A stretch of DNA of 64,000 nt from Candidatus Dormiibacterota bacterium. Its GTDB lineage: Bacteria; Chloroflexota; Dormibacteria; Aeolococcales; Aeolococcaceae. Position 1 is the stretch's first letter. Every line of letters begins with the position of its first letter. Where the stretch lies: contig PMOL01000009.1 of NCBI GenBank assembly GCA_003162415.1, forward strand, positions 168,446 to 232,445. Reading direction: 5' to 3'. Below are positions 30,005 through 41,024 of the stretch, piece by piece. A program made the translations under genes and the position numbers. The notes below the pieces were generated by a model that saw only the letters and a list, made by a program, of their open reading frames with translations, was not told where the DNA came from and did not search any database.

Positions 30005-30031
30005 CGTGCCGGGAGAGGGAGTCGAACCCTC
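30005..30031. repeat. attL core (27-bp copy of tRNA-Leu 3' end)
   Basis: Identical to 40940-40966; not followed by the rest of a tRNA. Confidence 0.9.
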
Positions 30032-30110
30032 GCCGGGGGAAGCGGAAACCCCGGTCCTGAATTGCCAGGGGTGGTCAGAACGCGTCAAGTGTAGCCATGG
30101 GTTGACCCCT

Positions 30111-30132
30111 GAAATGGACACGAAATGGACAG
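30111..30132 (+). repeat. candidate integrase arm-type site, left arm (two 11-bp units)
   Basis: GAAATGGACAC-GAAATGGACAG, 22 bp, identical to 40883-40904; starts 79 bp inside attL. Confidence 0.65.
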
Positions 30133-31619: not shown

Positions 31620-32261
31620 CTACGCTGCGCGCAGAACGGCCCTGATGGTTGAGGTGTACCACTGGCTGCCGCCATGGGCCGTTGGGATGGCCTTGGCGTT
31701 GAAGTAGGCAGCGATTGCTTGGAGCGTTTTACCCTGCGCACGCTGGCGCTTGATCGTTTTCACGACCGAAGCCGGCAGAACACGGGGCCTACCGCAATGA
31801 ATGCCCTTCTTCTTGGCTACTGTCATGGCCGCGACTGTCCTCTGGCCGATGAGTCGGCGTTCAAGCTGGGCAAAGGTGACAGCCATGTTCGCCATTGCTT
31901 CACCCATCGGTGTAGACAGGTCCAAGTCTAGATCGAGCACGCAAACATTGAATCGCTTGGATTGTGCGCGTTGGAGCAGCGATCCGAAGTCCACGACACT
32001 ACGGCTGATGCGATCGAGCTTCGCGGCGACTACGCCCTGGGCATCCCCTGATTCGCAGGCCGCTACAGCGTGGTCATATCCCGGCCGCTTCCTGGTCGTT
32101 GCGGCGGACGCGATATCTTGAAAGACCTGTAGCAGGGTCCACCCGCGACGGATGCACTCACTCTCGATGGCAGCGGTCTGAGCCTCCAAGCTATGCCCGC
32201 TCGACCCCTGCTCGTCGGTTGACACCCGAACGTACCCGACAACTCGATCGCCCTGGTGCAC
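31620..32261 (-). CDS. small serine recombinase / resolvase family protein
   Basis: VVGYVRVSTDEQGSSGHSLEAQ, KLDRISRSVVDF, AQLERRLIGQRTVAAM, C-terminal HTH GRPRVLPASVVKTIKRQRAQGKTLQAIAAYFN. Confidence 0.9.
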   Translation of the reverse strand: MHQGDRVVGYVRVSTDEQGSSGHSLEAQTAAIESECIRRGWTLLQVFQDIASAATTRKRPGYDHAVAACESGDAQGVVAAKLDRISRSVVDFGSLLQRAQSKRFNVCVLDLDLDLSTPMGEAMANMAVTFAQLERRLIGQRTVAAMTVAKKKGIHCGRPRVLPASVVKTIKRQRAQGKTLQAIAAYFNAKAIPTAHGGSQWYTSTIRAVLRAA

Positions 32262-35613: not shown

Positions 35614-37605
35614 CTATCCCGTGGTGATTCGCCCGATGACGGCGCCGGCAGCTGTGAACCACATGGCCCCGTCTGGGCCGGCGGCGATCCCGAGCGTGTG
35701 CCCTTCCATCCCGATGTTCGTCACAGCCCCGCCGGTGGTGATTCTTGTGATCGTGGTGCGGCCTCCGTTGGTAACCCACAACGCCCCATCGGCCCCGGCC
35801 GCGATGTCTGTCGGGATAGGGCCGATCGCGGGGCCGCTGTACAGCGTCACGCTCCCATTCATGGTGATCCGTCCGATCGCGTCGTCAAGACTACCGGTGA
35901 ACCACATCGCCCCGTCTGGGCCGGCTGCGATCCCGTTCGTTCCACTGATGCCGCCGAGGCCGGTGCTGTAACTCGTCACCTTCCCTGCGGTGGTGATCCG
36001 CCCGATTAGCCCGCCGAACTGATCGCCGCCAGTGAACCACATGGCCCCGTCTGGGCCGGCGGCGATCCCCAGCGGGGCGCTAATGCCGGGACCGCTGTAA
36101 TTGGTGACCACCCCGGTGGTGCTGATCCGTCCGATGGAGTTGTTGTTAGTGAACCACAACGCCCCGTCGGGTCCGGCCGCGATGTACTGGGGGTCGATAA
36201 TGCCCGAGCCCGTGTAATTCGTCACTGTCCCCGCAGTGGTGATTCGGCCAATCGAGTTGTTACCGCTATTGGCGAACCACAGAGCGCCATCAGGTCCAGC
36301 GACGATCCCGAGTGGGGAGCTAATGCCGGGACCGGTGTAACTAGTGCTTACCCCCGAGGTTGTGATCCGTCCAATCGAGTTATCGGCCAGGTTGGTAAAC
36401 CACAACGCCCCATCAGGCCCGGCCGCGATCTCGTAAGCGTATTCGATCCCGTTGGTGAAGTAGTTTGTCACCACCCCGGAGGTCGTGATCCGTCCGATTG
36501 AGTTGGAATTGGTAAACCACAACGCGCCATCAGGCCCAGCCACGATCCCGCGCGGGTAGGAAAGGCCGGAAGCGGTGTAATTGGTGACCACCCCGGAGGT
36601 CGTGATCCGTCCTGTCGAGTTGTTGCCATTGTTAGTGAACCACAGGCGTCCATCAGGCCCTGCGGCGATCCCCGTCGGGGAGCTAATGCCTGGACCGGTG
36701 TAATTGGTGACCACCCCACCGGTGGTGATCCGTCCGATGGAGTTATTGCCATCGTTGGTGAACCACAAGGCTGCCCCATTGGGCCCAGCCACGATCCCGA
36801 GTGGGGAGCTAATGCCGGGACCGGTATAATTGGTGACCACCCCAGCAGTGGTGATCCGTCCGATGGAGTTGTTGCCACTGTTAGTGAACCACAAGCCTCC
36901 GTTGGGCCCAGCCACGATTCCGAGCGGGGAGCTAATGCCGGGACCGGTGTAATTGGTGACCACCCCGGAGGTCGTGATGCGCCCAATCGAGTTGTTGGCA
37001 TCGTTGGTAAACCACAAGGCACCGTCCGGTCCGGCGGCGATGTACTGTGGGGCGCTAATGCCGGGACCGGTGTACATCGTCACCTTCCCAGTGGTGGTGA
37101 TCCGTCCGATTGAACCTGAGGTATAGGGGTTGGTGAACCACAAGGCCCCGTCGGACCCGACAGCGATTCCGCGCGGGAAGTTGATGCCGTGGCCGCCGTA
37201 GATCGTGACCACCCCGGCGGTGGTGACCCGTCCGATGGAGTTCTCGCCATCGTTAGTGAACCACAAGGCTCCATCGGGCCCAGCCACGATATCTCCCGGG
37301 TCATTCACGCCGTGGTAGAGCGTCACCACGTGATGGAAGCCCGTGCCAGATGCACTGCCGACTGTTGCTCCGAGGGTTAGGGCGGGCACTCCAATCAGCA
37401 CCGCAGCCAAGACAGCCAGATGTCGGGTCAGCAAGCGGTGACGTACTACTCGTTCAGAACGTCCACGCTCCTGATGTCCCGCCTTGAGCGGTGAAGCTCC
37501 GCCGCGACCCGTTGGTCGAAGATGAGGCTGCGGTTCCGAATGCGAGCCGCCGATGACGCTCAAAGCCACCGATGCGGCACCACCAGCTGCGAGTGCACAC
37601 CTCAT
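35614..37605 (-). CDS. virginiamycin B lyase (Vgb)-like beta-propeller protein with 14 blade repeats
   Basis: Fourteen ~41-aa repeats of the type GIVAGPDGALWFTNDGNNSIGRITTAGVVTNYTGPGISSPL; start at MRCALAAGG with RBS-like GGGGGA upstream. Confidence 0.85.
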   Translation of the reverse strand: MRCALAAGGAASVALSVIGGSHSEPQPHLRPTGRGGASPLKAGHQERGRSERVVRHRLLTRHLAVLAAVLIGVPALTLGATVGSASGTGFHHVVTLYHGVNDPGDIVAGPDGALWFTNDGENSIGRVTTAGVVTIYGGHGINFPRGIAVGSDGALWFTNPYTSGSIGRITTTGKVTMYTGPGISAPQYIAAGPDGALWFTNDANNSIGRITTSGVVTNYTGPGISSPLGIVAGPNGGLWFTNSGNNSIGRITTAGVVTNYTGPGISSPLGIVAGPNGAALWFTNDGNNSIGRITTGGVVTNYTGPGISSPTGIAAGPDGRLWFTNNGNNSTGRITTSGVVTNYTASGLSYPRGIVAGPDGALWFTNSNSIGRITTSGVVTNYFTNGIEYAYEIAAGPDGALWFTNLADNSIGRITTSGVSTSYTGPGISSPLGIVAGPDGALWFANSGNNSIGRITTAGTVTNYTGSGIIDPQYIAAGPDGALWFTNNNSIGRISTTGVVTNYSGPGISAPLGIAAGPDGAMWFTGGDQFGGLIGRITTAGKVTSYSTGLGGISGTNGIAAGPDGAMWFTGSLDDAIGRITMNGSVTLYSGPAIGPIPTDIAAGADGALWVTNGGRTTITRITTGGAVTNIGMEGHTLGIAAGPDGAMWFTAAGAVIGRITTG

Positions 37606-37620
37606 GGCTATCCCCCTGTC
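37547..37620. repeat. leader repeat copy 1 (5' end of the Vgb-like gene)
   Basis: 69 of 74 positions identical by hand alignment to 38907-38980; includes RBS region, start codon and signal-peptide codons. Confidence 0.85.
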
Positions 37621-37750
37621 TCTCAAAACAGCCCTGATTTTGGCAGGAAGGGCAGACTGACCAGTGCTGCCAGTCAGGAGACGCCGGAGTAGTTGGCGCT
37701 GCCGTAAGACTAGATCTGAAGCTGCTCGCATACCCAGAGCCCTACGGGCG

Positions 37751-38965
37751 TCAAGGCACATAGCCGTGGAGTGAGACGCCGTAATTTGCGTTCTCGGTAC
37801 ACACGTACACGCGTCCGTCAACTGGGATCACGGCACCGACAAACGCAGCAGCGGAAGATGGCGGCGAGAGGGTTCCGAGCAGGGCACCGGTGCTGCTGTT
37901 GAGCATGACGAGCTTATTCAGCGCATTTTCGTTGGCGATGCCGAGTACCGTGTAATCGTCGTCATCAACATAGACGACGCCGTTAGCGATCGTGGGCGCG
38001 TCACCTTGGTACTCCGGGTCATCCCAGACCAAGCTGCCATTGGTGGCATTGAACGCTGCCACGCCATTCGTTGCTCCCGCTCCGGCCGCAAATACGAGCC
38101 CTCCGGCAACCGCGGGAGCGCTGACGTCTCCGGTCAGGGCAGTCTCATGCCACACGATGCTGCCCGTTGCCGCGGAAAGTCCGTAAACACCACATCCGGT
38201 CACATACAGCATTGAGCCGGAGACCGCGACCGCCGAGGCTCCGCATGTGTCGATGGCCTGCGACCAGATGACCGCCCCCGTGGCCGCATTGACCTTGTAG
38301 ATGACGGCCTCGGTGTTGTTGGAGCCGGAGGCGAAGACGGCGCTCCCGTCAGAAGTGAGGGAGGGTGAATCGACGGAATCGGAGTAAGGCCCCTGATCGT
38401 CTGGAAGCCCGATCGACCAGCGGACCGCCCCCGTCGCAGCATTGATTGCGGCTAGATCGCTCTCATCATCTTCCGCGTATACCGTGCCGTCTCCTGCCGA
38501 GGGTGGCTCTATGCCGAGGCTGACCCCCGAGAACAGGCACATGACCTTCTTGCCACCGGTGCTGATCGCGGCAACACCTGGATCGTCCAGCTCCACCCAG
38601 ACGCGACCCTGTGCGAATGCCGGATCCGACGTGTCCTCGCCGCAGATGCCGGTTCTCCACTCGACCGCGCCGGTTGCACCGTCGATCGCTGCAACGTCAT
38701 AGTTGTCCGAGAGATAGACGACGCCGCCGGCCACGATGGGGTCGGCATATACCCCATTGACGCGAGTGCTGAAGGCGCTGACCAAATGACCCACGTTTGC
38801 TCGGGTCAGGACGGTCTCTGATGGGTTGTATCCAGAGTGTTGAGCGTTGAAGCCCCACTGTGTCCAGTTGGCCGGTGATGTCGTTGCGGCGCTGGCAGGA
38901 TGGGATCCGCCGATGACGCTCATAGCCACCGATGCGGCAACACCAGCTGCGAGTAGAAACCTCAT
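37751..38965 (-). CDS. secreted PQQ-binding-like beta-propeller repeat protein
   Basis: Signal peptide MRFLLAAGVAASVAMSVIGGSHPASA; repeats such as GGVVYLSDNYDVAAIDGATGAVEWRTGI and GGLVFAAGAGATNGVAAFNATNGSLVWDD. Confidence 0.85.
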   Translation of the reverse strand: MRFLLAAGVAASVAMSVIGGSHPASAATTSPANWTQWGFNAQHSGYNPSETVLTRANVGHLVSAFSTRVNGVYADPIVAGGVVYLSDNYDVAAIDGATGAVEWRTGICGEDTSDPAFAQGRVWVELDDPGVAAISTGGKKVMCLFSGVSLGIEPPSAGDGTVYAEDDESDLAAINAATGAVRWSIGLPDDQGPYSDSVDSPSLTSDGSAVFASGSNNTEAVIYKVNAATGAVIWSQAIDTCGASAVAVSGSMLYVTGCGVYGLSAATGSIVWHETALTGDVSAPAVAGGLVFAAGAGATNGVAAFNATNGSLVWDDPEYQGDAPTIANGVVYVDDDDYTVLGIANENALNKLVMLNSSTGALLGTLSPPSSAAAFVGAVIPVDGRVYVCTENANYGVSLHGYVP

Positions 38966-38980
38966 GGCTATCCCCCTGTC
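38907..38980. repeat. leader repeat copy 2 (5' end of the PQQ-like gene)
   Basis: Partner of 37547-37620. Confidence 0.85.
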
Positions 38981-39565
38981 TCCTGAAAACAGTTTCGATC
39001 TTAACAGGTTGATCGGTGGCTCGTCAGCCGTGGCCGGATATTTGTGGTGGAGCCAAGGAGACGCCGTCCTCCCAGTTGCGAAGGGTTCCTCTAGCGGTGA
39101 CCGCTTGGGCAGACAGTCGATGCCCATCATCGATGGGCTTTGCATCCGGCAATGGCCAGCCTCGTCGGGCACGAAGGCGACGTCACGGGAACGTACTCGA
39201 GACGATCGTTGTGCCAGGAGTAGTCTTAACGCTCACGTCCACATTGGCTCGGACGACTGCGCTTTCAGGTCAAGAAACAACTGTAAATAGCAGAACTCAT
39301 TGCAACAAATAAGATCATTTGGCGCTGGTGATCCGGCCTCGAGAGTACGCTCGTCCAGCGGGAATGTTCGGGTCAAAGTCGAGCTTTTCCCGGGTTACAA
39401 TCATTGACATGAGAGAGCATCGGGCCGTACACGTCAGCACTCGTGATTTCGCAATGGCGAAGCATCAACAGCGAGGTGAAGCAGCGCCACGCACGGCTCG
39501 ATCACGTTACGAGATTAGGGTGGCAGCAACGCTGGCAAGGAGGGGCCCGGGATCAGCCCGAGAGC

Positions 39566-39799
39566 GTGACGGTGGCTGAGGCGTTGTTGTTGACCAAGCA
39601 GCAAGCCGCTGATGCTCTTGCAATCAGCGTTCGGACGCTAGACCGGTGCAGGAACGAGGGCGAGTTACCGGCCGTTTACCTGGGGCCGCGTACAGTTCGA
39701 TTCCGGCCAGAGGACGTGGTGGCCTTCAGGGATGCCAAAGTGAATACGCAGCCGGTGCTGCAGTGGCCCTTGATGACGGTACCGCGCGGCAGGCGCTAG
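39566..39799 (+). CDS. excisionase-like helix-turn-helix protein
   Basis: VAEALLLTKQQAADALAISVRTLDRCRNEGELPAVYLGPRTVRFRPEDVVAF (MerR-like excisionase fold), directly upstream of the integrase gene. Confidence 0.8.
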   Translation: MTVAEALLLTKQQAADALAISVRTLDRCRNEGELPAVYLGPRTVRFRPEDVVAFRDAKVNTQPVLQWPLMTVPRGRR

Positions 39800-39813: not shown

Positions 39814-40992
39814 ATGACTAAGCCGTATTCACGTCGCGGCACGGGTAGCTACCGTAAGCGAGGCAAAAGCCATCAGGTGCGGATAGTCATCGATGGCGAG
39901 ACCCGGTGTTTTAGCGCCGCAACGAAGACGGAAGCGCAGGCAAAGGCTAACGCATTTCTAGCGCAGCCGCAGAGCAGCGTCAAATCACCAACCGTCGGCG
40001 AATGGCTGGCCGAGTGGCTTACGCGGAAGAAAGCGCGACGCGCACCTCAAACGGTGCGGCCATATGAATCGCATGCCAGGGTTCACATTGTTCCCCTCCT
40101 TGGGAAGGTACGTCTCGATGCACTCACGCCTGAGCACATCTACAAATTGCACGAAGCTTCCGGCGGTATGGCGCTCAAAGTGCACATGACGTTGGCGACG
40201 GCTCTGAATGAGGCCAGGCGATACGGTCACCGCGTGTCCAACGCAATCTCCATCGTGGATAGACCCGACAGATCGCCCAGCAGAGCCGTCGCGCTGAGTG
40301 CCGATGAGGTCAACCGGCTGGTTGAGGCTGCAAAGGGTGATCCGCTGGAAGCTTTGTATGTGTTGGCCGTCACCCTGGGGATTCGGCAGGGCGAACTCTT
40401 CGCGCTGCATTGGCAAGACATCAACTTTCAGTCGCGACAAATATACATAACCGGTAACGTCACGCGGCAACATGACGGAAGCCGGGTCATCAACAAGCCG
40501 AAGACCCCGGCTAGCGTCCGGACCCTGGTGATGCCCCAAGTCTGTGCGGATGCCCTGGCACGAACGCCGCAGACCAACGAATTGGTATTCCCGGGACCTG
40601 ACGGGAAGCCGTGGGTTGCATCCAGCTTCTACAAACGCTGGCAGGCGATGAGGATGCTTGCCGGCCTCAGGCCCATCCGATTCCATGACCTGCGTCACAC
40701 AGCGGACACCCTCGCGCTTGACGGCGGGGCTTCTGTTCTGACCGTGATGAAGACCATGGGCCATACGTCGCGTTCGATGACACTTGACCGCTACGGCCAC
40801 CTGAGCGATGACGCTTCCGAAGACCTAGCGGACGAGATCGATGCGCGATTCGGGCCGCGGATTCGGGTGCTTCCCGGTCGCCGAAATGGACACGAAATGG
40901 ACAGCGAGAAGAAAAACCTAGGGATTGCAACGGATTCCGCGTGCCGGGAGAGGGAGTCGAACCCTCACGAGGTTGTCCTCGGCGGTTTTTGA
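39814..40992 (+). CDS. int: site-specific tyrosine integrase
   Basis: Catalytic residues recognisable: GIRQGELFALHW (R), FHDLRHTADTLAL (HxxR), GHTSRSMTLDRYGHL (H...Y). C-terminus and stop codon lie inside the tRNA-Leu gene. Confidence 0.93.
   Translation: MTKPYSRRGTGSYRKRGKSHQVRIVIDGETRCFSAATKTEAQAKANAFLAQPQSSVKSPTVGEWLAEWLTRKKARRAPQTVRPYESHARVHIVPLLGKVRLDALTPEHIYKLHEASGGMALKVHMTLATALNEARRYGHRVSNAISIVDRPDRSPSRAVALSADEVNRLVEAAKGDPLEALYVLAVTLGIRQGELFALHWQDINFQSRQIYITGNVTRQHDGSRVINKPKTPASVRTLVMPQVCADALARTPQTNELVFPGPDGKPWVASSFYKRWQAMRMLAGLRPIRFHDLRHTADTLALDGGASVLTVMKTMGHTSRSMTLDRYGHLSDDASEDLADEIDARFGPRIRVLPGRRNGHEMDSEKKNLGIATDSACRERESNPHEVVLGGF
40883..40904 (+). repeat. candidate integrase arm-type site, right arm (two 11-bp units)
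   Basis: GAAATGGACACGAAATGGACAG, identical to 30111-30132; lies within the int coding sequence, 35 bp from the attR core. Confidence 0.65.
40940..40966. repeat. attR core (27 bp, 3' end of the tRNA-Leu gene)
   Basis: Identical to 30005-30031. Confidence 0.9.
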
Positions 40993-41024
40993 GACCGCTG
41001 CGTCTACCATTCCGCCACCCCGGC
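40942..41024 (-). tRNA. tRNA-Leu (anticodon CAA)
   Basis: Minus strand GCCGGGGTGGCGGAATGGTAGACGCAGCGGTCTCAAAAACCGC...GAGGGTTCGACTCCCTCTCCCGGCA; 7-bp acceptor, anticodon stem GCGGT/ACCGC with loop CTCAAAA, long variable arm, T-arm. CCA not encoded. Confidence 0.96.

Follow-up and report, generated by a model that had tools for sequence, protein, structure and literature searches.

The 64-kb window analysed here (contig PMOL01000009.1 of a Candidatus Dormiibacterota bacterium, forward-strand positions 168,446 to 232,445) contains a genomic island of 10.9 kb, the integration target of which is an intact tRNA-Leu(CAA) gene and the tyrosine integrase gene (int) of which ends inside that same tRNA gene. 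The island is delimited by a 27-bp core sequence, CGTGCCGGGAGAGGGAGTCGAACCCTC, that occurs exactly twice in the window, where none would be expected by chance, and it carries beta-propeller genes and a serine resolvase gene as cargo. The integrase belongs to the Phage_integrase family (PF00589); its catalytic R..HxxR..Y residues are intact, and the core does not separate any of them from the others. Directly upstream of int a gene is found that matches helix-turn-helix (HTH) proteins of the excisionase type. An exact empty site was not found in the sister genomes, whose similarity ends ~430 bp left of attL. The coordinates of all features are given in Table 1.

Two predicted C-termini for one integrase

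The int frame crosses the attR core, enters the tRNA-Leu(CAA) gene and ends as ...ACRERESNPHEVVLGGF (...CRERESNPHEVVLGGF) at a TGA (40990-40992) that is the reverse complement of U33-C34-A35 in the anticodon loop. To the right of attL the same frame continues as ...CRERESNPRRGKRKPRS, in which six of the nine residues are Lys or Arg, up to a TGA at 30058-30060. The frame is thus open on both the attR and the attP side, which yields two C-termini (for the window element by an in silico join of the circular form, for relatives by continuous DNA junctions, see below), and it is the last 8-9 amino acids of the integrase that are swapped upon integration or excision. The original prediction had described precisely these two endings, CRERESNP-HEVVLGGF in the integrated form and CRERESNP-RRGKRKPRS in the joined form, as well as the antisense stop codon, and its coordinates and translations proved correct to the base. 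The integrated tail is set by the host tRNA: it is identical at tRNA-Leu genes without this integrase and it varies between targets (HEVVLGGF, YALTSTAP).

A 21-bp double repeat, GAAATGGACACGAAATGGACA, flanks the core in two identical copies, and none of 100 shuffles produced a match. From their position flanking the core, these repeats look like arm-type integrase sites on both arms of attP. One copy lies within int and therefore the P side of attP would fall inside the int coding sequence; the location of attP, including its P arm, within the 3' end of int is among the new points of our analysis.

In a structure model of the integrase (mean predicted local distance difference test score, pLDDT, 62.8; 25-35, the lowest values, from residue 331 onward) no long element follows the helix at 334-346. 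A flexible C-terminal tail would fit this model, which is weak evidence.

Table 1. Features of the island and its tRNA target in the 64-kb window
Feature	Position	Strand	Basis or remark
attL core, 27 bp, tRNA-Leu 3' end	30005..30031	.	exact repeat of 40940-40966
Left end of element adjoining core; would give int the ending RRGKRKPRS and stop in the circular form	30032..30060	+	G002 homologue codes HRRKRKPRS and stop
P' arm, putative arm-type Int sites	30111..30131	+	identical to 40883-40903
Serine resolvase-like gene within element	31620..32261	-	Pfam Resolvase 1.5e-35
Excisionase-like HTH gene immediately 5' of int	39443..39799	+	HTH_17 1.8e-8; TIGR01764 excise 1.6e-6, slightly below cutoff
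Tyrosine integrase (int), ATG start likely, final codons within tRNA gene	39814..40992	+	Phage_integrase 4.3e-23; Phage_int_SAM_3 3.3e-10 (N-terminal, SAM-like)
Putative P arm inside int, codes NGHEMD	40883..40903	+	identical to 30111-30131
attR core inside int, codes CRERESNP	40940..40966	.	exact repeat, 2 copies in window
tRNA-Leu(CAA), integration target	40941..41024	-	ARAGORN
Host-encoded int tail HEVVLGGF and TGA, antisense to tRNA-Leu	40967..40992	+	int frame and tRNA position

Two neighbouring beta-propeller genes of the cargo (35614-37821 and 37751-39172) share ~150 bp at 80% identity, and the former has long internal repeats at the DNA level.

A clade of tRNA-Leu-targeting integrases

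Integrases that are 44-53% identical to the window integrase were recovered from its own genome and from five relatives. A scan of viral contigs returned distant relatives only (25-29% identity). Wherever the target is visible, these relatives point into a tRNA-Leu gene, and the Dormibacterota integrases that target tRNA-Leu are monophyletic (support 100/100). The CRERESNP frame is open across the core in the window integrase and in C3, G005C13, G005C32, G009, C14 and G005:C39, as well as in fragments in G002, G003 and G004. Within the same clade, the frame in which G029 and G031 read into the core is a different one, and the G013 integrase stops 67 bp before the tRNA. Of the other integrases surveyed that have a tRNA in antisense orientation downstream, nearly all terminate 11-230 bp short of it; one (L141, at a tRNA-Met) overlaps. 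Two further candidates for read-through of a tRNA, L165 and L195, were rejected, the stops being located inside the matched stretch.

For the C3 and G005C13 elements, a search of the retrieved upstream sequence revealed no attL, the G009 contig is too short to contain one, and comparison with sister genomes suggests that C3 is a truncated island of less than 2 kb. G013 has a P arm of the GGGTAC type and, at attL, a P' arm of the AATGGAC type that does not match it; its attL may belong to another element because the two arm types differ. The 18-kb element concerned (L021, reverse complement positions 1302 and 19354) is suggestive of a mosaic or tandem arrangement.

Two short elements reside at the same tRNA-Leu(CAA), one in G002 (L077:76-2310) and one in G004 (L073:~1273-2918), with both att ends and arm repeats and no complete integrase. 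They are likely non-autonomous derivatives, which retain the 3' end of int because attP overlaps it. Separately, partial copies of tRNA-Leu(CAA) that extend from the 3' end as far as the anticodon and lose their similarity beyond it were observed in G000:C22 (L027:6821) and G000:C7 (L028:5584-5666) and at L074:10251 and L077:2257, as if the anticodon loop of this tRNA were the crossover site of another type of integrase. The partial copy of L028 is even called as a tRNA by ARAGORN.

Natural junctions and basic tails

In two relatives, C14 and G005:C39, int, core and P' sequence form continuous DNA, with attP-type junctions at L024:19460 and L145:18968. A 486-bp block that comprises the 3' half of int, the core and the P' arm (L024:19112-19597 and L145:18620-19105) is 90% shared between these two genomes in otherwise unrelated surroundings, and at both junctions the frame runs on into a basic tail.

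The P'-encoded residues that follow the Ser-Asn-Pro at the end of the core are RRGKRKPRS in the window, HRRKRKPRS at the attL of G002, PRLPQNDRKKRRLNSRERPGSAT in C14, PKLPQNDRKNSRPNSRERPGSAT in another C14 copy, the core of which is degenerate, PKLAQNDRKKRRLNSRERPGSAT in G005:C39 and TTCSKPKRKSGRPSTKKRP at the attL of G013 (L009, i.e. G005:C32, was excluded from this count, being joined to non-tRNA DNA and having no P' arms). The basic circular tail anticipated for related elements was therefore encountered in all six P' sequences examined, at a net charge of +4 to +8 and in three lineages. All P' regions align and thus probably share an ancestor; the six tails stem from one homologous region and for that reason do not count as independent observations. 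Among random genomic tails of comparable length, the charge seen here is attained at a frequency of 0.0035 for the window (net +6), 0.02 for G013 and 0.18 for C14, and base shuffles attain it at 0.003, 0.003 and 0.10, respectively. The charge could be a matter of inherited DNA composition. Between the two usable pairs of P' sequences, three silent and two replacement changes (C14/G005C39) and two silent and three replacement changes (window/G002) were counted, which is no departure from neutrality.

Selection before the core

Catalytic codons in pairs of close relatives show strong purifying selection, with replacement to silent changes of 1:14, 2:25 and 6:19. The 26 codons that precede the core display few changes of either kind, and it is the silent ones that are depleted (pooled Fisher p=2e-5). 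This linker shows no reduction in amino-acid changes, nor are its first and second codon positions depleted. Between C3 and G005C13, for instance, 88 of 345 third positions differ upstream, against 0 of the 25 linker positions (p=0.0009). The close relatives of the window integrase in G002, G003 and G004 are too fragmentary for this contrast. The pattern points to a constraint on attP as DNA, and not to a constraint on the protein.

Discussion

What the DNA shows directly is the overlap, the two reading frames, the repeats of the arms and the natural int-core-P' junctions in relatives. Given these, we consider it probable that the exchange of tails is for the most part a by-product, which results from an attP that sits inside the 3' end of int and has at most a modest effect on the integrase. 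According to this reading, attP (P arm, tRNA-identical core and P' arm) overlaps the 3' end of the gene and the recombination site would lie in the T-arm region of tRNA-Leu, so that the last int codons would be exchanged because recombination takes place where attP and int coincide. In the circle int would end in the basic tail encoded by P', and in the integrated state its tail would be read antisense from the tRNA, with the stop at the anticodon. We infer that the excised circle forms and that both proteins are made. The C-terminal extension past the last conserved helix would then exist because attP is located there, and selection would hold its DNA.

Several points weigh against this by-product reading. 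A basic tail is encoded in 6/6 P' sequences, and in the case of the window and of G013 this exceeds what a plain by-product would lead one to expect (shuffle P=0.003 for either). The silent-site result, strong for C3/G005C13, is weaker for C3/G005C32 (p=0.018) and, in the third-position test, not significant for C14/G005C39 (p=0.24); the pairs of the C3 family are mutually non-independent. Disorder of the tail is weakly supported, since the structure model is poor overall.

The original prediction suggested that the swap could act as a protein-level switch that follows the integration state, and allowed that it could also be neutral. In a switch scheme the basic circular tail would strengthen DNA binding or another step and favour integration, and the neutral tRNA-encoded tail would leave an integrase that is weaker or has another specificity, which would keep the integrated state stable up to the expression of the excisionase-like gene. 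This seems unlikely, even though the recurrence of the basic tail over three lineages and its rarity among random tails (least pronounced for C14) speak in its favour, as does the precedent of the Myxococcus phage Mx8, in which integration alters the 3' end of int and, according to a review, the specificity of the enzyme (PMC6070905). The swap itself is structurally real, but a switch by means of the protein is disfavoured: the shared frame is absent from two sub-lineages (G029/G031 and G013), conservation is found at silent sites and not in the amino acids, the P' pairs change in a near-neutral manner, the P' regions derive from a single ancestral one and the tail of the Mx8 phage form is not basic. 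The broader proposal that, throughout the clade, P' doubles as a DNA site and as the code for a basic tail found only in the circular form, by which the integrase senses its own integration state, we regard as rather doubtful. Regulation by the tail is possible, and the recurrence of basic tails lends it some weight, but judged by sequence a by-product of attP is the better supported of the two.

A very unlikely variant is that one of the tails acts as a degradation signal, so that the level of integrase follows the integration state, comparable to the integration-dependent immunity of mycobacteriophages: the integrated tail does end hydrophobically (VVLGGF), but neither tail resembles an ssrA tag by eye and the integrated tails differ between targets. 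That translation of the extension departs from the annotation or that int has decayed, with neither tail present in cells, is scarcely plausible, for although several relatives are fragmentary (C14, G005:C39, G002, G003 and G004), the window integrase has its full length, retains every catalytic residue and is preceded by an excisionase-like gene, and related full-length integrases are under purifying selection.

Attachment sites that overlap a gene have been described in several systems. In Mx8, attP lies inside int and integration supplies a new 3' end, by which, as a review states, the integrase is not inactivated but acquires a changed specificity (PMC6070905); the authors of Islander count the integrases of Mx8 and SSV among those that extend across attP (PMC4383910). 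In the mycobacteriophage BPs and its relatives, integration alters the C-terminus of the repressor that contains attP, via a degradation tag (PMC4557955), and in archaeal SSV-type integrases the att site is located inside the integrase gene (PMC8371274). The island shares with SSV the att site within the integrase gene, but the SSV gene is split on integration and its catalytic part cut off from the rest, whereas here the catalytic domain stays whole and the integrase is not of the suicidal type. With BPs it shares a C-terminus that changes in the gene holding attP; the changed gene there is the repressor, whereas attP here overlaps int only.

The likeness to Mx8 goes furthest. In the Mx8 record, a tRNA-like core lies in int, followed by ~112 residues of net charge +2, and a small excisionase gene (uoi) is situated just upstream; here too the core lies within the int frame, the frame is open on both sides, integration renews the 3' end and the gene matching HTH_17 and excise directly precedes int. 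Mx8 IntP and the window integrase also share a weak overall homology (25% identity, E=2e-7). The differences are that the phage form has 112 residues after the core as against 9 in the circular form here, that the post-core tail is near neutral in Mx8 and basic here, that the target tRNAs differ, and that Mx8 is a phage whereas the present element, with its P and P' arm repeats, is a Dormibacterota genomic island. The integration-dependent swap of an integrase tail is therefore best read as already known from Mx8, the island being a further arrangement of that kind.

The analysis extends the Mx8-like overlap of int and attP to genomic islands of the Dormibacterota. Silent-site depletion near the core offers a simple means to tell a constraint on attP DNA from one on the protein in overlaps of this type, and the set of relatives, which includes natural attP junctions, provides a direct testing ground for deciding between regulation and by-product.
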